Of a stretch of 64,000 nt of DNA, positions 50,410 through 60,598 are shown piece after piece. Both the position numbers and the translations under genes were made by a program. Source of the DNA: Prescottella equi (GTDB lineage Bacteria; Actinomycetota; Actinomycetes; Mycobacteriales; Mycobacteriaceae); NCBI RefSeq assembly GCF_002094305.1, contig NZ_LWTX01000002.1, forward strand, positions 248,001-312,000. The letters are read 5' to 3'. The notes under the pieces were generated by a model that saw only the letters and a program-made list of their open reading frames with translations, did no database searches and was not told where the DNA came from. Within the stretch, counting starts at the first letter, position 1; each line of letters begins with the position of its first letter.

Positions 50410-51399
50410 GTGCGTGGACTTGGCATCGATCTCGGAACTACCAACACTGTCGTCGGGACCCTCGACGGCGGAATCGTCCTGAACGAACCGTCTTTCATGC
50501 TGGTGCGAAACAAGGACCCGCATCGGGCCCTCGTGATAGGCCAGGACGCGCGCAATCTCGTCGGCCGCACCCCGGCAGGGATCTCGCAGGTGCGGCCCAT
50601 GCGCGACGGCGTGATCGTGGACCTGGAGTCGGCCCGGGCTTTCGTCACGGCCGTCATCGAGCAGGTCGCGCCGCACCGCCGCTACGGCCGACGGCAGACG
50701 GCCGTCTTCTCGGCACCCGCCGGGGCCACCCCGCTCGAGCGCCGCGCCCTGCTCGAGGTCGGGCACGAGGCCGGTCTGCGGAAGGTCGGGCTGATCCCCG
50801 AACCTGTGGCGGGGGCGCTCGGGTGCGGCGTCAACCCCCTCGAACCACGGGCGCACCTCGTCGTCAGCGTGGGCGGCGGTGTCTCGGAGGTCACCGCGAT
50901 CTGCTTCGGAGGCGTGATCTCGCACCGCAGTTGCCAACTGGCGGGCGAGGAACTGACCGAGGCGCTGCACCACTACCTGCGCGAAGAACACCAGATCATC
51001 GTCGGCGAACTCACCGCGGAGCGCGCGAAGATGGGCGCCCCCGACCCCGCCGACGAACAATCGCTCGTGGTGGAGGGACTGGACGCCGTCACCGGCCGCG
51101 CCCGGCTGATCTCGCTCGACGTCGAGGAGATCGTGGAGGCGCTGCGACCGACCACGACGGGAATCGTGCAGACACTCACCGCATGCCTGGAAGATCTTCC
51201 CCCGCAAGCGATCAGCGACGTCATGTCCGAGGGCGTTCTGATGATCGGCGGTGGCGCGATGCTCCGCGGGCTGTCCCAGTTGTTCGAGGAGTCGTTCGGC
51301 CTGCCGGTGAAGACGGCCGAACGCCCCCTCACGTGCGTCGCCGAGGGCGCCACCGCCTGCCTCGATCACCCCGAGGTCGTTGCCGCCTACAGCGGCTGA
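50410..51399 (+). CDS. MreB-like actin-family protein
   Basis: A 329-aa actin-fold protein of the MreB/Mbl type. Phosphate-1 motif GIDLGTTNTVVG (about 5-16), PEPVAGALGCGV region, adenosine motif MIGGGAMLRGL (about 278-288). In phosphate-2 the canonical VDIGGGTTEVAVIS reads VSVGGGVSEVTAIC: the conserved Asp is Ser, so ATP hydrolysis may be weak or lost. Mycolic-acid bacteria grow at the poles and most lack MreB, which makes this gene notable. It starts with GTG 50410 and ends directly against the convergent SEDS-PBP fusion gene. Confidence 0.85.
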   Translation: MRGLGIDLGTTNTVVGTLDGGIVLNEPSFMLVRNKDPHRALVIGQDARNLVGRTPAGISQVRPMRDGVIVDLESARAFVTAVIEQVAPHRRYGRRQTAVFSAPAGATPLERRALLEVGHEAGLRKVGLIPEPVAGALGCGVNPLEPRAHLVVSVGGGVSEVTAICFGGVISHRSCQLAGEELTEALHHYLREEHQIIVGELTAERAKMGAPDPADEQSLVVEGLDAVTGRARLISLDVEEIVEALRPTTTGIVQTLTACLEDLPPQAISDVMSEGVLMIGGGAMLRGLSQLFEESFGLPVKTAERPLTCVAEGATACLDHPEVVAAYSG

Positions 51400-54273
51400 T
51401 CACCGGCCGGGTTCCGGCGCCGGTGCCGCAGGCGGGGGGCCCGGGCGCTCCGCGAGGTAGCGCTCGAGGATGGCCTTGACCACCGGACCGGATGTGGCCG
51501 AACCGAACCCGCCGCCGCGAACCAGCGCGGTCACGACGATCTCGGGGGATTCGAAGGGCACCACCGCGGAGAACCAGGCGTTGAGCCCGCCCGGCGCCGA
51601 CGGATCCTCCGCCGTGCCCGTCTTGGCGCCGGCAGTTACCGGCAGCGTGGCCAATTGGCCCGCGGTACCCGCGGTGGCCGAAGCCCGCATTCCGGCGCGG
51701 ACAGGACCGAGCTTGTCGGCGAAGGGAAGCCGCTGCGGCTCGCCCGTCGGAATCGGAGCGCCGTCGCCGGTGGCGTCGGCGGCGGCGAGTTGCGGGGTCA
51801 CGAGCGCGCCGGTCGCGATGCCGGACGTCCAGCGCGCCACCTGCACCGGCGTCGCGATCACGGTGCCCTGGCCGATACCCATCAACAGCGTGGAGCCGGG
51901 ATACCAGGTGCCACCGATGTCGGCGACGTTCTCCGGGGTGCCGAGGAACCCGGCGGATTCGCCGGGCAGGTCGATGCCGGATCGGCTGCCCACACCGAGT
52001 TCGGACGCGGTCCGCGCCATCCGTTCGGGACCGAGGAGTTCCCCGAGCTTGTAGAAGTACACGTTGTCCGACCACTGGATCGCGCCCAACAGTTTGTTCG
52101 GTCCCATCGGTTGCCAGTTCGCGAACGTGTGCCCGCCGTAGCTGTAGGCGGCGCCGGTCTCGATCACCTCTTCCGGGTCCAGGACCTGCTCCTCCTGGTT
52201 CGCCGACGCGACGACGATCTTGAAGGTGGAGCCGGGTGGCGCGGCGGTCTGGTAGGCGTGGTTGAGCATCTTGCCGGGCCCCGCCCCCTCGGTCTGGGCG
52301 GCCAGCGCGACGGCGTCGACGGGGGGACCGTAGACGTTGTTGTCGTACCCGGGCACGCTGGCGAGCGCGAGCACCCCACCGGTGCGCGCGTCCATCACGA
52401 CCGCCGCGCCGAGGTCGCCTCCGCTGCTACGGACCGCCTGGGCCAGCGCGTCCGTCGCCAGCGTCTGCAAGCCGATGTCCAGGTGCAATCGCAGGTCGTG
52501 GCCCGGCACCGGATCGACCCGCTCGGCGGGGCCGACCAGGTTGCCTGCGGGATCGACGTACACACACTGTCTGCCGTCGGTGCCGCGGAGCAGCGCGTCG
52601 TACTGCTTCTCTAGGCCCGCCCGGCCCACCCGCGACCCGAGGGCCAGCTGCGGCCAACGTTCCATGTCCTGCGGATCGCCGACGCCGACATAGCCGAGCA
52701 CCGAGGCGAGCGAGGGTCCGTACGGATAGTGCCGCTTGCCGGAGGGCACGACGAGCACCCCGGGCAGCTTCGCGTCGATGATCCGCCGCGCCTGCTCCGG
52801 GGGCACCCGGCCGACGACGGCCTGCATCTCGCCGTCGCCGCGGGCGCTCAACGTTTCCGCCAGCTCGGCGTCGGGCTCGCCGAGCAGCCCGGCCAGCATG
52901 ATGCGTTCCCCGGAATCGTCCTCGTCGAACATGCGACTGACCACCGATATGGAGTACTCGGGCACGTTGGTCGCCAGCGGCACCCCGTTGCGGTCGAGGA
53001 TCTCGCCGCGCTCGGCGGGCAATCGGATGCACCGGGTCATCTGGGTGTCGCTGAGCGCGCGCAACTCCGGACCGCGGCCACTCTGCAACTGCCACGCGAA
53101 GACCGACATGGCCACGAGGAGCGCGGTGACCGCGAGCGAGCCGGCCGTGACGCCCCGTGGCCGACCGCGGCGAGTCGACGGCTGCGCCCACAGCGGGCGG
53201 CCGACACCGTCGCGGCGCACCGCGAGCACCAGCCCGATCGCCACGAAACCTACGACCGCGACGGTGCCTCCGTAGCTGAACATCGGGAGCGGCATCCCGG
53301 TCTGGGGCAGCACCGACAGGCTCGCCCCGATGGACAGCACCGCGTGGATCCCGAACAGTCCGCCGATTCCCGCGGCCACGAGCGCGGCCTCCCGGGTCCG
53401 GGCGCGGCGCGCGGCGAGCGCGGCCCGCCACGTGATCACCAGGCTGGCCGCGATGACGGCGATACCGGCGAACAGCCCCCACCCGTAGACGACGCTCGCG
53501 AACGCGAGGTCGTGCTCCGCCTCGGGCAGGTATGCCGCCCTCAGGTCGTAGACCGGGTCGCGCGCCAGGCCCCACAGGCCGCCGCTGCCGACCGCGATGT
53601 CGGCCTGCATCGACGCCCAGCCCGACCCGCCCGGGTCGGCGTCGCTGGAGATGAACGTCTGGATCCGTTCGAGCTGGTACGGGCGCAGGAAGAGCACAGC
53701 GATGGGTAGCGCGGCGATCCCCAGCGCGAACAGCGGCATCAGCGGCGCCGCCGGCACCCGGGCCAGGATCAGCATCAACACCGCGATCGCGACGAGCACC
53801 ACGGCACTCGACAGGTCAGGCTGCAGCGCAACGAGCGCGACGACGCCGCCGGCGATCGCCAACGCCGCCGTCAGTCGGCCGACGGTGTAGCCACCGGCGA
53901 GGATGGTCGCGGACACCATCACCAGACCGAGCTTGGCGATCTCCGACGGCTGCACGGTGAACAGGCCGAAATCCAGCCAGCGCTGCGCGCCCTTCACCGC
54001 GACGCCGACGAGCGGCACCGCCGCCAGCATCACGACCGAGACTGCGAGGGTCACCCATCCGAACCGGGCCAGATTGTTCACGCGCATGCGCGAGACGACC
54101 CACATCAATCCGAGTCCGATCACCGTGAAGAAGGCGTGGCGGATGGCCTGCGACGTGAACCCGATGGACACCAGGTTGAGGAGACCGAGAACCGCGAGAA
54201 CGACCGCCGCCGCCACGATCCAGGGGTCGGACTCCCGATCGTGTCCCCGAACCCGGCCGCCGTCCCCACTCAT
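51400..54273 (-). CDS. natural fusion of SEDS glycosyltransferase (RodA/FtsW) and class B penicillin-binding protein
   Basis: A single 957-aa protein. Residues ~17-352 are a SEDS polymerase with the RodA/FtsW landmarks KGAQRWLDFG and QPSEIAKLG (92-116), the catalytic Asp255 in LPEAEHDLAFAS, and MPLPMFSYGGT (327-337). After a short linker and one membrane helix (~374-395) comes a class B PBP: pedestal entry ERGEILDRNGVPLA, and the transpeptidase domain with Ser682-Lys685 (GSTFK), SDN 735-737 and KTG 884-886. So one chain holds both activities that are normally a RodA-PBP2 or FtsW-PBP3 pair. ATG 54273 overlaps the stop of the upstream gene by ATGA. Confidence 0.95.
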   Translation of the reverse strand: MSGDGGRVRGHDRESDPWIVAAAVVLAVLGLLNLVSIGFTSQAIRHAFFTVIGLGLMWVVSRMRVNNLARFGWVTLAVSVVMLAAVPLVGVAVKGAQRWLDFGLFTVQPSEIAKLGLVMVSATILAGGYTVGRLTAALAIAGGVVALVALQPDLSSAVVLVAIAVLMLILARVPAAPLMPLFALGIAALPIAVLFLRPYQLERIQTFISSDADPGGSGWASMQADIAVGSGGLWGLARDPVYDLRAAYLPEAEHDLAFASVVYGWGLFAGIAVIAASLVITWRAALAARRARTREAALVAAGIGGLFGIHAVLSIGASLSVLPQTGMPLPMFSYGGTVAVVGFVAIGLVLAVRRDGVGRPLWAQPSTRRGRPRGVTAGSLAVTALLVAMSVFAWQLQSGRGPELRALSDTQMTRCIRLPAERGEILDRNGVPLATNVPEYSISVVSRMFDEDDSGERIMLAGLLGEPDAELAETLSARGDGEMQAVVGRVPPEQARRIIDAKLPGVLVVPSGKRHYPYGPSLASVLGYVGVGDPQDMERWPQLALGSRVGRAGLEKQYDALLRGTDGRQCVYVDPAGNLVGPAERVDPVPGHDLRLHLDIGLQTLATDALAQAVRSSGGDLGAAVVMDARTGGVLALASVPGYDNNVYGPPVDAVALAAQTEGAGPGKMLNHAYQTAAPPGSTFKIVVASANQEEQVLDPEEVIETGAAYSYGGHTFANWQPMGPNKLLGAIQWSDNVYFYKLGELLGPERMARTASELGVGSRSGIDLPGESAGFLGTPENVADIGGTWYPGSTLLMGIGQGTVIATPVQVARWTSGIATGALVTPQLAAADATGDGAPIPTGEPQRLPFADKLGPVRAGMRASATAGTAGQLATLPVTAGAKTGTAEDPSAPGGLNAWFSAVVPFESPEIVVTALVRGGGFGSATSGPVVKAILERYLAERPGPPPAAPAPEPGR

Positions 54274-55520
54274 CGGCAGACCGCGTTCTCGGCGGGTACG
54301 TACAGCGGCTCCGACGCGGCGACGGCCGGGACGCTCGTGATCGCCGCGACGGCGAGCGCCGGACTGTCCGGAAGGGTGGCCCGGCTCAGGCCGTACACAC
54401 CGTCGCGCCCCGGCTCCGCCGGGATGGTGACGTCGGACCCCTCGCGCACCTCGCCGGTGCAACGGTCGTAGACGTTCAGCTTCCAGGTGACCGCGCCCAC
54501 CGTCGACGGGTCCAGTCGCACGTCCACTCGGACGGCGCAGGGCTTACCGGGACTGCACGAGCCGTCGGCGAAACTTGCTGTGACCCCGGTTATCTGACCT
54601 GACGCGGCCGGGGCACCGGTGTCCACCGCCGCCGGCGCGACCCCGCCTGCGGCCGCCGGGTCCTCGGGTGCGGGTGGCGGCGGCGACACCGGCTCGATGC
54701 GGTTCTGTGCTGACGAGGCGTTCACCGGATGGACCAGCGCGTCCCAGCCCCGACTCAACTGATCCCAGGCGCGGGGAGCCGCGACGGCCGACCCGGCGAG
54801 AACGACGAGCGCGAGCACGGCGTACAGGCCCTGACGCCGGGACGGTCGCCGCCGCCGACTGTGCCAGGGACTCCGCACCGGCGGATACCAACCGGTACCC
54901 GTCACCAGCGATCCGGTCGCCACGGCCGGACCGTTCCGGGTCGCGGACGGGTCGCGCGGCTCCGCGGCCGCCCGGCTGCTCGCCGAGGGCCGGACGGTCG
55001 CCGCCTCGACGAGGTCGGCGATCCGGCGCCGCCGCCGAGCCTCCCCGTCGGGGTCGAGTTCGGGATCGATCACCCGACGAATCCGATGAGACGACTCCTG
55101 GGGATCCACAGTGCCCGAGACTGATTCGCGAAGAAGATCACCGAAGCCCGAACCGCGGCAGTTGGCTGCGATGCCCCGGATCAGATCGACGAGGCCGTCG
55201 TCCACCTCGATACGGGAGGCGACACCGTCGATCGTGAGCCGTCCACCGTCGGACACCGTGACGGCCTCGGGGGACAGCGTTACCGGCCTGCCCCGACGCG
55301 TAGCTGTCAGTTCGACCTGTTCGAGCAGGTCCGCGACCAGTTGCGCGGCCTGCGGCGGCGTCAGGCGGGCCACCGCGAGCAGCGCCGGGAGCGTGATACG
55401 GCCACCGGGGGCGCCGCCACCGCCACTGCCCGCGGCGTCGTCGGACGACTCGGCCGGCTCCGATCCGGACACGGCGGGCCGGCTCCCGCTCGCGTGGACT
55501 CCCAAGGCTGCTTCGTTCAT
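54270..55520 (-). CDS. single-pass membrane protein coupled to the SEDS-PBP fusion
   Basis: A 416-aa protein. The cytoplasmic part (1-225) has a Ser/Gly-rich start and a stretch RITLPALLAVARLTPPQAAQ ... LSPEAVTVSDGGRLTIDG (about 40-100) that recalls the helix and catalytic-loop/DFG region of protein kinase folds without its catalytic residues. A TM segment follows (about 231-248), then a Pro/Ala-rich spacer and an extracytoplasmic domain with four Cys (GSCSPGKPC, DRCTG, NAVCR) probably forming disulfides. No family recognised. The ATGA overlap with the fusion gene suggests a joint complex in cell-wall synthesis. Confidence 0.75.
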   Translation of the reverse strand: MNEAALGVHASGSRPAVSGSEPAESSDDAAGSGGGGAPGGRITLPALLAVARLTPPQAAQLVADLLEQVELTATRRGRPVTLSPEAVTVSDGGRLTIDGVASRIEVDDGLVDLIRGIAANCRGSGFGDLLRESVSGTVDPQESSHRIRRVIDPELDPDGEARRRRRIADLVEAATVRPSASSRAAAEPRDPSATRNGPAVATGSLVTGTGWYPPVRSPWHSRRRRPSRRQGLYAVLALVVLAGSAVAAPRAWDQLSRGWDALVHPVNASSAQNRIEPVSPPPPAPEDPAAAGGVAPAAVDTGAPAASGQITGVTASFADGSCSPGKPCAVRVDVRLDPSTVGAVTWKLNVYDRCTGEVREGSDVTIPAEPGRDGVYGLSRATLPDSPALAVAAITSVPAVAASEPLYVPAENAVCR

Positions 55521-57403: not shown

Positions 57404-58300
57404 CTAGGTGCCCGACGGCACGATCAGCACCGGGCAATCGGCGGTGTGCAGCATCGCGCGACTGGTCGAACCCAGCAGCATGCCCTTGAAGCCGCCCCGG
57501 CCGCGAGTGCCGACGACGATCAACTGCGCCTGCTCGGCGTACTCGCTGAGCACCCGCACCGGACGGTCACGCGCGACCACACGCTCGACGGTCACATCCG
57601 GGTAGCGCTCCTGCCAGCCCGCGAGCCGCTCGGCGAGCACCACTTCCTCACCCGTCTGGATACGGCTCCAGTGCGGGTCGTCCGGTGTCGCGCCGAGCGA
57701 CGGCTGCACGCTGACATCGCTCCACACATTGACCGCGACCAGGGTGGCGCCGCGCATCGCGGCCTCCTCGAACGCTGCAGCGACGGCGGGCTTGCAGGAC
57801 TCGGAGCCGTCGACGCCCACGACGATCGGACCCTCGATGGGCGGATGCCCGTCGAGCGTGCGACCACGAACCACGGCGACGGGGCACTCGGAGTGCGCGG
57901 CCACCGCGGCCGTCACCGAACCGACGACCAGCCCGGTGATCTCACCGTGGCCGTGCGAGCCGAGGACCACCATCCACGCCTGCTTCGACAGGTCGATCAG
58001 CAGCGGCGCCGGCCGGCCCTCGAGTTCCTCGGTCGTGATCTCGATCGCCGCGTTGTCGTCGGCCGACTGCCGGGCGAGGACCTGTGCGCTGTCGAGGCGG
58101 GCGCGGGCGGTGTCGTGCAGCTCGTCCTGGAAGCTGCGTGCCAGGTAGGGCTCGGAGTAGTAGAACGCCGGGATGTGTACGGCGGTCACGATGTGCAGGC
58201 GACGCTGATGGGCCGCGGCGGCACGGGCCGCCCAGACCACCGCGTTCGATGCCGCTTCGGAACCGTCTACTGCGACGACGATCGCATCTGTTGCGCTCAT
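57404..58300 (-). CDS. tandem universal stress protein
   Basis: A 298-aa protein made of two UspA domains (about 1-150 and 155-298), like M. tuberculosis Rv2623. The second has the ATP-binding pattern GVDGSE ... VVGTRGRGGFKGMLLGSTSRAMLHTADCPVLIV with G-2x-G-9x-G(S/T); the first has VLGSHGHGEITGLVVGSVTAAVAAHSECPVAVV. So ATP binding is likely. ATG 58300 follows AAGGAGAATCAGAATCC. Likely role: stress or dormancy. Confidence 0.93.
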   Translation of the reverse strand: MSATDAIVVAVDGSEAASNAVVWAARAAAAHQRRLHIVTAVHIPAFYYSEPYLARSFQDELHDTARARLDSAQVLARQSADDNAAIEITTEELEGRPAPLLIDLSKQAWMVVLGSHGHGEITGLVVGSVTAAVAAHSECPVAVVRGRTLDGHPPIEGPIVVGVDGSESCKPAVAAAFEEAAMRGATLVAVNVWSDVSVQPSLGATPDDPHWSRIQTGEEVVLAERLAGWQERYPDVTVERVVARDRPVRVLSEYAEQAQLIVVGTRGRGGFKGMLLGSTSRAMLHTADCPVLIVPSGT

Positions 58301-58397
58301 GGATTCTGATTCTCCTTCACACCCGCGGTGTGTTCCGGGACCTGTCGAGACCCATTGTCCTGATTTCCGGCGGCCCGCGTGTGGGTCTTCGGTCCCG

Positions 58398-58432
58398 GGC
58401 GAGCCGTGACGCTCGGCACGTCACGGCTCGCC
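58398..58432 (-). terminator. terminator after the luciferase-like oxidoreductase gene
   Basis: GGCGAGCCGTGAC (58398-58410) pairs perfectly with GTCACGGCTCGCC (58420-58432), right after the stop at 58441. Confidence 0.75.
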
Positions 58433-58440
58433 GGGGTCCG

Positions 58441-59481
58441 TCAGTCGACGAGCGCGCGCAACTGCTCGATGAGCGCGACGCGCCCGGCACGGTCTGCGGC
58501 CAGCGGCATCACGTTGAGAGTGGTGGCGCCGGCGGCCGCGAAGGCCGCGACCCGTTCCTTGACGAAACTCTCGGTGCCGATCAAGGAGATCGCGCGCACG
58601 AGGTCGTCGGGCACGGCGGCGGTGGCCTCCGCCTTCTTGCCGGCCAGGTACAGGTCCTGGATCTTCTCGGCCTCCTCCTCGTACCCGTAGCGGCACGCGA
58701 GGTCGTTGTAGAAGTTCTTGCCCTTGGCGCCCATGCCGCCGATGTAGAGCGCCAGATTCGGCTTGATCCACTCCAGCATGGGCTCGACGTCGTCGCCGAT
58801 CGCCAGCGCCGGGCTCGCGTAGATCTGCAGGTCGCCCAGGCTCGGATCACGCTTGACCTTGCCCGTCGCGAGCGCGTCGCCCCACACCGCGTCGGCCTTC
58901 TCCGGGTGGAAGAAGATCGGTTCCCAGCCCTCCGCGATCTCCGCGGTCAGCGCCACGTTCTTCGGTCCGAGCGAGGCGATGACGATCGGAATCCGGTCGC
59001 GCACGGGGTGGTTGATGAGCTTGAGCGGCTTGCCCAGCCCCGTGCCCTGGTCGGCGGGCAGCGGCACCTTGTAGTACTTGCCCTGGTACTCGACCTTCTC
59101 CCGCCGCCACACCTGACGACAGATGTCGACGAGCTCGCGGGTGCGGCCGAGCGGCGCGTCGTACTTGACGCCGTGGAAGCCCTCGATCACCTGCGGGCCC
59201 GACGCCCCGATACCCATCACGAATCGGCCGTTCGAGACGTAGTCCAGACCCGCCGCGGTCATCGCGGTGAGGCTCGGGGTGCGGGTGTAGATCTGGAAGA
59301 TGCCCGACGCCAACTCCACCGTCGACGTCTTCGCCGCGAGGTAGCCGATCTGGCTGACCGCGTCGAACGAGTACGCCTCGGGGACGAAGACGATGTCCAG
59401 GCCCGCCCGTTCGAGGTCGGCGACCTCCTCGACGGTCTCGGCGAATCCGCCGCTGTAGTTCAAGCCCATACCGATGCGCAC
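58441..59481 (-). CDS. LLM-class (luciferase-like) F420-dependent oxidoreductase
   Basis: A 346-aa TIM-barrel protein of the luciferase-like class that in actinobacteria uses F420. Seen are IGMGLNYSGGFAET, VFVPEAYSFDAVSQIGYLA, ASGIFQIYTRTPSLTAMTAAGLDYVSNGRFVMGIGASGPQVIEG (in pieces), typical of this class. The substrate is unknown. GTG 59481 is the annotated start; ATG 59469 is possible. It lies between two universal stress genes in the same direction. Confidence 0.9.
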   Translation of the reverse strand: MRIGMGLNYSGGFAETVEEVADLERAGLDIVFVPEAYSFDAVSQIGYLAAKTSTVELASGIFQIYTRTPSLTAMTAAGLDYVSNGRFVMGIGASGPQVIEGFHGVKYDAPLGRTRELVDICRQVWRREKVEYQGKYYKVPLPADQGTGLGKPLKLINHPVRDRIPIVIASLGPKNVALTAEIAEGWEPIFFHPEKADAVWGDALATGKVKRDPSLGDLQIYASPALAIGDDVEPMLEWIKPNLALYIGGMGAKGKNFYNDLACRYGYEEEAEKIQDLYLAGKKAEATAAVPDDLVRAISLIGTESFVKERVAAFAAAGATTLNVMPLAADRAGRVALIEQLRALVD

Positions 59482-59532
59482 TTCGGCGACCCCATTCCGT
59501 ATTTACCTGTGACGGACGTTACGGAGTGGACT

Positions 59533-60459
59533 CTACGACCGCTCGGGCCGAACCACCATCACGGGGCACTGCGCCTTCTGGACCAGCTCGTTGCTGGTCG
59601 AGCCCAGCAGCAATCCGCGGAATCCGCCGCGACCACGGCTGCCGACCACCACGAGCTGCGCCTTCTGGGACCACGCCAGCAGATGGGTGCGGGGTCCGTC
59701 GATGTACAGCTCGCGCTGGACCTCGACGTCCGGGTAGCGATCGCGCCAACCGGCGAGACGTTCGGAGAGGACCTCACGCTCGGCGTCCTCGAACGCACGC
59801 GGATCCCGGATCGCGCTGCGGCCACCGGCCAGGGTGCCGTGCGGGGTGTCGCTCCAGGCGTGCACGGCGACCAGGGGGACCCCGCGCAGCGCCGCCTCCT
59901 CGAACGCCACCGCGGTGGCGCGCTCGCTCGTCTGGCTGCCGTCGATGCCGACGACGACGGGGCCCTGGCTGGGCACCTCGCCGTCGCGCTGGTGCACCAC
60001 GACGACCGGGCACACGCCGTGGCTGGCGGCATTGACCGCCGTCGAACCGATGCCGCCCGCCGCACCGCTGCCGGACGCGCCGAGGACGAGCGCGCGCGAA
60101 TCCTCCGACAACGAGACGAGCCAGCGGGCGCCGCCCATCGTGGAGATCTCGGTGGACAGCGTCAGGTCGGCGGAGACTTCGCGGGCGGCCGCGGCGGCGC
60201 GGGCGAGGATCTCCTTGCCCTCGTCCTCCATCCAGTCGTAGATCCCGGCGACATCGAGGTAGGGCGCCCCGTAGGTGTACGGCGAGAAGTTGAGGGCGTG
60301 GATGATTCGCAGGGTGAGGTTGCGCTCCGCGCACATCCGCGCGGCCCAGACGACGGCCGCCTGGGCGGCGTCCGATCCGTCGACGCCGACGATCACCGAG
60401 TTCTCGTCCCTGGCGACCGACGGTTCCTCGACGCCCTGCTGCATGCCCTCTGCGGTCAT
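59533..60459 (-). CDS. tandem universal stress protein
   Basis: 308 aa with two UspA domains. N-terminal: VIVGVDGSDAAQAAVVWAAR and LVLGASGSGAAGGIGSTAVNAA; C-terminal: VVGIDGSQTSERA and VVVGSRGRGGFRGLLLGSTSNELVQKAQCPVMVV, with the full ATP-binding G-motif. ATG 60459 follows GAGGGTGAGCGGG; a longer frame to 60543 is not supported. A near-consensus DosR box lies 140 bases upstream, as for dormancy-regulon stress genes in mycobacteria. Confidence 0.93.
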   Translation of the reverse strand: MTAEGMQQGVEEPSVARDENSVIVGVDGSDAAQAAVVWAARMCAERNLTLRIIHALNFSPYTYGAPYLDVAGIYDWMEDEGKEILARAAAAAREVSADLTLSTEISTMGGARWLVSLSEDSRALVLGASGSGAAGGIGSTAVNAASHGVCPVVVVHQRDGEVPSQGPVVVGIDGSQTSERATAVAFEEAALRGVPLVAVHAWSDTPHGTLAGGRSAIRDPRAFEDAEREVLSERLAGWRDRYPDVEVQRELYIDGPRTHLLAWSQKAQLVVVGSRGRGGFRGLLLGSTSNELVQKAQCPVMVVRPERS

Positions 60460-60598
60460 CCCGCTCACCCTCTTCCGTTTGCGACGAATCGGTGTGGCAT
60501 TCGTGGTCGATCCTGCCCCGGACCGAACCGATCGAGGTGCCACCTCCGACGTTAGTCACTCGGGCCTGTTTGCGTGGGGATGCCACGGTCCCGAGTGG

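Follow-up and report, generated by a model that had tools for sequence, protein, structure and literature searches.

A natural SEDS–class B PBP fusion gene of Prescottella equi is co-inherited with genes for a divergent MreB and a bitopic membrane protein

The window analyzed here is a 64,000-nucleotide stretch of Prescottella equi contig NZ_LWTX01000002.1. It contains a gene in which a SEDS-type polymerase is joined to a class B penicillin-binding protein (PBP), bordered on one side by a gene for the actin homolog MreB and on the other by a gene for a bitopic membrane protein. The features, in window coordinates, are:

50410..51399, plus strand: divergent MreB actin, 329 aa (Pfam PF06723, 302.8 bits)
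51400..54273, minus strand: SEDS–class B PBP fusion, 957 aa, single open frame
53212..54156, minus strand: SEDS glycosyltransferase domain, residues ~40-354, with Asp255 (Pfam PF01098, 200.7 bits, and alignment to RodA 6bar/6pl5)
53095..53205, minus strand: basic linker, residues ~357-374, and PBP membrane anchor, ~375-393 (hydropathy; alignment of 15 sequences)
52534..53022, minus strand: PBP dimerization/pedestal domain, residues ~418-580 (Pfam PF03717, 114.8 bits)
51463..52410, minus strand: transpeptidase domain, residues ~622-937, with STFK at 682, SDN at 735 and KTG at 884 (Pfam PF00905, 168.5 bits, and motifs)
54270..55520, minus strand: bitopic membrane protein, 416 aa, upstream of the fusion and overlapping its start codon by ATGA

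Elsewhere in the window, at 57404-60543, a 346-aa protein that we take to resemble a flavin-dependent oxidoreductase stands between two others, which presumably resemble two-domain universal stress proteins.

The frame of the fusion is continuous, as a sequence-only reading of this DNA had claimed, running uninterrupted for 957 codons from an ATG at 54273 to a stop at 51400-51402 on the minus strand. Along the chain the Pfam matches follow in the order FTSW_RODA_SPOVE (200.7 bits against a cut-off of 26.4), PBP_dimer (114.8 against 24.4) and Transpeptidase (168.5 against 22.1). The first of these, together with the catalytic Asp, assigns the N-terminal half to the SEDS glycosyltransferases, and the latter two, with SxxK, SxN-type and KTG motifs and no GT51 domain, assign the C-terminal half to the class B PBPs. 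The catalytic residues stand at the very numbers that the sequence-only reading had given, namely D255 (within EHDLAFA), S682-T-F-K685, S735-D-N and K884-T-G, and D255 aligns with the Thermus thermophilus RodA residue that is Asp in 6bar and 6pl5 and Ala in 6bas and 6pl6. Across 46 fusion proteins (the window and 45 further loci) D255, S682, K685, S735, K884 and G886 are invariant, and T885 is present in 45. The second and third positions of the SDN motif vary among these proteins, with Asp in 33 and Asn in 13 at residue 736, and Asn in 37 and Asp in 9 at residue 737; the remaining transpeptidase motifs are nearly fixed.

By hydropathy, the last helix of the SEDS half and the anchor helix of the PBP are ~16 to 22 residues apart, and in an alignment of 15 sequences this linker is recognizable and rich in Arg and Pro. 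Separate SEDS proteins end with their C-terminus inside the cell, and class B PBPs start with their N-terminus inside. Joining the two thus requires just a short inner loop, and the linker is predicted to be cytoplasmic. A structure model of the fusion had a mean pLDDT of 47.9 and was left unused. Neither half reaches the equivalog cut-off of its best-known counterpart: the RodA model TIGR02210 scores 227.3 bits against 336.7, and the PBP2/MrdA model TIGR03423 394 bits against 455. A PBP2 from a canonical mre cluster likewise falls below the TIGR03423 cut-off, at 416.8 bits. On this pbp2_mrdA scale the PBP half of the fusion (394 bits) stands with the mre-cluster PBP2 (417, one cluster) and above the gene in the PbpA position of the host genome (260). 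The pbp2_mrdA model is also the top score of this half, which reaches 134 bits with the low-affinity PBP4(5) model and at most 68 with the mec models.

Relatives with the same domain order were found in many genomes, and they identify the fusion as a natural one. Both halves lie in a single uninterrupted frame at each of the 32 named loci (L045-L076) and at 12 of 13 loci from further families (L093-L105), the thirteenth, L101, being cut by a contig end. SEDS and PBP genes do adjoin one another in canonical mre clusters and near the kinase genes of this genome, but the single frames of relatives spanning 47-97% identity, together with the recognizable linker of the 15 aligned sequences, rule out a join of two adjacent genes by frameshift or assembly error, which we regard as having virtually no chance of being correct. 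The named carriers among the 32 true loci are Rhodococcus, Prescottella, Hoyosella and Haloechinothrix, from a search that finds close relatives only; among the top named matches are Rhodococcus hoagii (97%), Prescottella agglutinans (95%) and P. defluvii (94%). When 44 fetched search loci were re-read, eight showed one stop within the match, seven of them within its last five codons; at the eighth (L025) the strand is ambiguous, and its presumed counterpart L048 has an open frame. In one same-genus genome that is 79% complete (G183) frame breaks split the fusion into three pieces (G183:C1:5115982-5118831) and the MreB match is short; the break may reflect sequencing error or decay. A Phycisphaerales locus (L077) initially read as a distant fusion was rejected, as it has a PBP gene followed by a distinct SEDS gene, and it served instead as an outgroup in the SEDS and PBP trees.

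The host genome carries four SEDS matches and ten transpeptidase matches, the fusion included in both counts, with nine of the ten above the Pfam cut-off. One SEDS protein scores above the FtsW cut-off; from its gene order we interpret its surroundings as the dcw cluster, where a class B PBP occupies the ftsI position. Another has two kinase-like genes and a class B PBP as neighbors, which corresponds to a rodA-pbpA-pkn order. The names ftsI, rodA and pbpA are taken here from gene order and presumed equivalence, as the proteins themselves fall below every equivalog cut-off. A lone SEDS gene on contig C9 (L162, 7392-8822, minus strand), with no PBP match within its 16 kb, also passes the FtsW equivalog (370.2 bits against 337.5), so that the genome encodes two FtsW-like proteins. 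Since separate SEDS and PBP genes occupy both the ftsW-ftsI and the rodA-pbpA positions, the fusion comprises an additional synthase, as had been supposed from the sequence. The sequence-only reading thus stood in regard to the fusion and its supernumerary status; it overlooked the neighboring genes for MreB and the bitopic protein, which are the most informative evidence on the function of the fusion.

The MreB gene is convergent with the fusion, and in the window their stop codons abut. Its product belongs to the MreB/Mbl family by PF06723 (302.8 bits against a cut-off of 27), scores too low for TIGR00904 (278.7 against 365.75) and barely passes NF010539 (294 against 293). The linkage is conserved. 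Of 46 loci compared, comprising the 32 named ones, 13 from other families and one short contig, MreB adjoins the fusion at 44, convergently at 43 of these and co-directionally in Haloechinothrix, with a gap of more than 400 bases at four of the 44. The two exceptions are L097, where the MreB match of the genome lies ~7 kb away, and L086, where the contig ends. Judging from the alignment, the linked MreB retains nucleotide-binding loops that are lost in an Mbl-like paralog, Mbl being the label used here for the second MreB of genomes of the f33 group. The linked MreB is not of this Mbl type, as 18 linked MreBs form one clade (100/100) and seven Mbl-like sequences form a separate one (100/100). 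Additional MreB homologs include a partial match ~3 kb from the module's MreB in a same-genus genome (G142:C1:1408671-1409171), and three homologs in the f33 genome G633 (L172, L177 and L185), of which L177 falls outside both the canonical and the Mbl-like groups.

The 416-aa bitopic protein comprises a helical domain (~39-178), one transmembrane helix (~231-249) and an outer β-sandwich (~305-410) with invariant cysteines at 322, 328 and 354; the helical domain is predicted to be cytoplasmic. Its gene lies immediately upstream of the fusion on the same strand at all 44 loci that yielded both frames, the exact gaps depending on the chosen start codon. The protein matched no Pfam or NCBIfam family, and among 31 members of its family there was neither a Pfam family nor a kinase match. 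A search of PDB sequences returned no relative (best E 0.21), and Foldseek gave mixed matches that were mostly β-sandwiches. A profile built from the bitopic family did not match two kinases of the host significantly (E 0.16). Any likeness of this protein to the mycobacterial MviN pseudokinase, or to the KIND domain of the eukaryotic actin nucleator Spire, is without sequence support.

The fusion was catalogued in partly overlapping samples of the family, order, class and phylum. In the family, 50 of 301 genomes carry the fusion, 49 at full length and G183 in three pieces; another 37 match at E 1e-30 by a partial, unfused SEDS or PBP alone. The fusion is present in 13 of 298 genomes of the order sample (two copies being cut by contig ends) and in 5 of 296 of the class sample, the window's own genome included. 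A sixth class-sample match (G786) was discarded as a PBP only. In the phylum sample 189 of 296 genomes match; besides the window's own genome, the matches listed all begin at residue 340 or later, and thus cover the PBP half only, and no further full-length fusion is among them.

The distribution of MreB mirrors that of the fusion. Within the family, MreB (PF06723, E ≤1e-30) is found in 50 of 301 genomes, which are exactly the fusion carriers, and the remaining 251 have neither; two same-genus genomes (G118 and G173) are among those lacking both. MreB is present in 63 of the 298 genomes sampled from the order. Each of the 13 that carry the fusion has the divergent form (E 1e-61 to 1e-92), while the 50 genomes with MreB and no fusion score best at E 1e-110 to 1e-158, except for a partial match in G418 (4.8e-75); one genome, G429, has both the divergent and the canonical kind. 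The divergent MreB is likewise present in all four further fusion genomes of the class sample. The bitopic profile matches 27 of 27 fusion genomes (E ≤2.5e-15) and one of 53 genomes without the fusion (G118, E 0.0016), a match judged to be chance, as the surrounding 16 kb hold no remnant of the module. MreC was found in none of 19 fusion genomes tested in the family, the window's own among them, unlike the canonical Rod complex, in which MreC is present; overall, MreC occurs in 3 of the 33 fusion genomes tested, and in G676 and G429 it adjoins a canonical MreB. Two genomes carry a second full-length fusion copy (G237 on C1 and C3, G271 on C2 and C6) with a single MreB match each, and G237 also has a single bitopic match. 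A copy of the fusion can thus exist alone, and these second copies count against a strict need of every copy for its partners.

Maximum-likelihood trees resolve each part of the module as one clade: the fused SEDS halves (n = 17, 100/100), the fused PBP halves (n = 17, 100/99) and the linked MreBs (n = 18, 100/100), drawn from 46 available fusion-linked sequences. All three clades lie apart from the genes of mre clusters, from the separate SEDS and PBP genes of the host and from the Mbl-like MreB of f33 genomes. Given the length of some outgroup branches, we make no claim on sister groups, and one canonical MreB (L159) was omitted from the last MreB tree. Distances of the three module proteins over 43 loci correlate with r of 0.92 to 0.97, computed without a control gene; co-inherited genes of one locus give correlated trees even where their products do not interact.

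Comparison with known systems clarifies what is distinctive here. The fusion shares with the RodA-PBP2 core of the Rod complex a SEDS polymerase, a PBP2-type transpeptidase and the same catalytic residues. It differs in being naturally fused, in having a bitopic protein and a divergent MreB alongside, in the lack of MreC among the 19 family genomes, and in both halves falling under their equivalog cut-offs. The actinobacterial mre cluster (mreB, mreC, an mreD-sized gene, pbp2 and rodA; L153, L157, L158 and L164), which we group with the spore-wall complex of Streptomyces, likewise places MreB near a SEDS protein and PBP2, but there PBP and SEDS are encoded by distinct genes, the PBP gene first, and its SEDS, PBP and MreB fall outside the fusion-linked clades. 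The polymerase of class A PBPs is of the GT51 type. Class A PBPs resemble the fusion in uniting polymerase and transpeptidase on one chain, according to the available portion of a published account (PMC8262863), whereas the polymerase of the fusion is a SEDS protein and Pfam detects no GT51 in it. There is also an artificial parallel: engineered RodA-PBP2 fusions, with the SEDS-then-PBP order of the natural one, are active, polymerizing glycan and binding a penicillin probe in the accessible parts of two reports (PMC6207328, PMC10449877). Natural SEDS-PBP fusions are noted in a single sentence of the part available of one of these, citing the Rhodococcus RHA1 genome (PMC10449877), the one such mention met in the literature covered. 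On its own, the fusion is thus a gene conserved among Rhodococcus and its relatives and previously mentioned in print. A published figure that includes Rhodococcus genomes may, from the portion accessible, already mark an MreB match there. Within the partial coverage of literature on natural fusions, Rhodococcus-group MreB and KIND domains or pseudokinases, no description of a fusion-MreB-bitopic module was found. What appears to be new is the three-gene module itself, a fusion, a private MreB and a bitopic protein that are co-inherited, in family genomes where tests for MreC gave no match.

The anatomy of the locus, its catalytic residues, the separate SEDS and PBP genes, the joint inheritance of its three genes among the sampled genomes, the single clade formed by each part and the lack of MreC in the 19 family genomes tested are established by these data. 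From the anatomy and co-inheritance we infer, as the most likely mechanism, MreB-guided synthesis by the fusion; the activity, the complex, the role of the coupler, and the site and condition of action are all deduced in this way. We consider it probable that the locus encodes an MreB-guided, one-chain elongation synthase module, with the bitopic protein as a coupler, that works beside rodA-pbpA and ftsW-ftsI. In such a module, the SEDS half would polymerize lipid II into glycan and the PBP2-like half would cross-link it, and placing polymerase and transpeptidase on one chain would yield a synthase of fixed 1:1 composition. The divergent MreB may position or orient the fusion from the inner face of the membrane. 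The bitopic protein, with its predicted inner domain, membrane helix and outer β-sandwich, likely couples MreB to the synthase in place of RodZ and/or MreC. Operating alongside the rodA-pbpA and ftsW-ftsI systems, the fusion would probably serve side-wall synthesis or a change of shape away from the poles. That the two halves of the fusion miss the RodA and PBP2 equivalog cut-offs counts against the elongation reading.

The fusion may instead be a conditional synthase that serves a developmental or stress state, such as fragmentation to cocci, resting cells or a spore-like wall, rather than normal growth, by analogy with the spore-wall complex of Streptomyces; we regard this as a real possibility, if not a probable one. 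It accords with the fusion coming on top of other SEDS and PBP genes, with its sparsity in the class sample, and with the restriction of Streptomyces MreB to sporulation described in the accessible parts of two papers (PMC3296230, PMC5685639). The linked MreB argues otherwise, as it lies outside the canonical clade and outside the Mbl-like clade of f33 genomes. None of the conserved neighbors seen is a developmental gene, a weak point given that the module genes alone were tracked at all loci.

It is improbable that the fusion serves as a spare synthase, with a changed β-lactam affinity in its PBP half and MreB as a passenger. Such a role would be in keeping with a genome in which the fusion is one of ten transpeptidase matches, and with the two genomes whose second copies come without a further MreB match. 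However, the 50 family genomes (of 301) that carry the fusion are exactly those with MreB, all 27 fusion genomes searched for the bitopic protein have it, and the PBP half scores far higher on pbp2_mrdA than on the PBP4(5) or mec models.

The MreB-guided module can be taken a step further, to a version that we offer only tentatively. In this extended version the module would be a minimal, MreC-independent elongasome, where the actin drives the one-chain synthase through a coupler with a degenerate, KIND-like kinase C-lobe as its inner domain and an outer domain that senses the wall or activates it, providing a second mode of wall building in polar-growing, mycolic-acid bacteria.

Within the available text of the relevant papers, genomes of mycobacteria and corynebacteria, or of actinobacteria with bacillary growth, are reported to be without mreB (PMC3296230, PMC5685639), and M. 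tuberculosis and its relatives to lack Rod components save RodA-PBP2 (PMC8262863). In a family whose mycobacteria are reported without mreB, the 50 carriers among 301 genomes all combine a private MreB with a synthase of one chain. If the proposed reading is true, the fusion would offer biochemistry and structural biology a natural SEDS-PBP enzyme of fixed stoichiometry, the module would represent an MreB system without MreC, and these bacteria would provide a test case for the actin guidance of wall synthesis in a polar grower.
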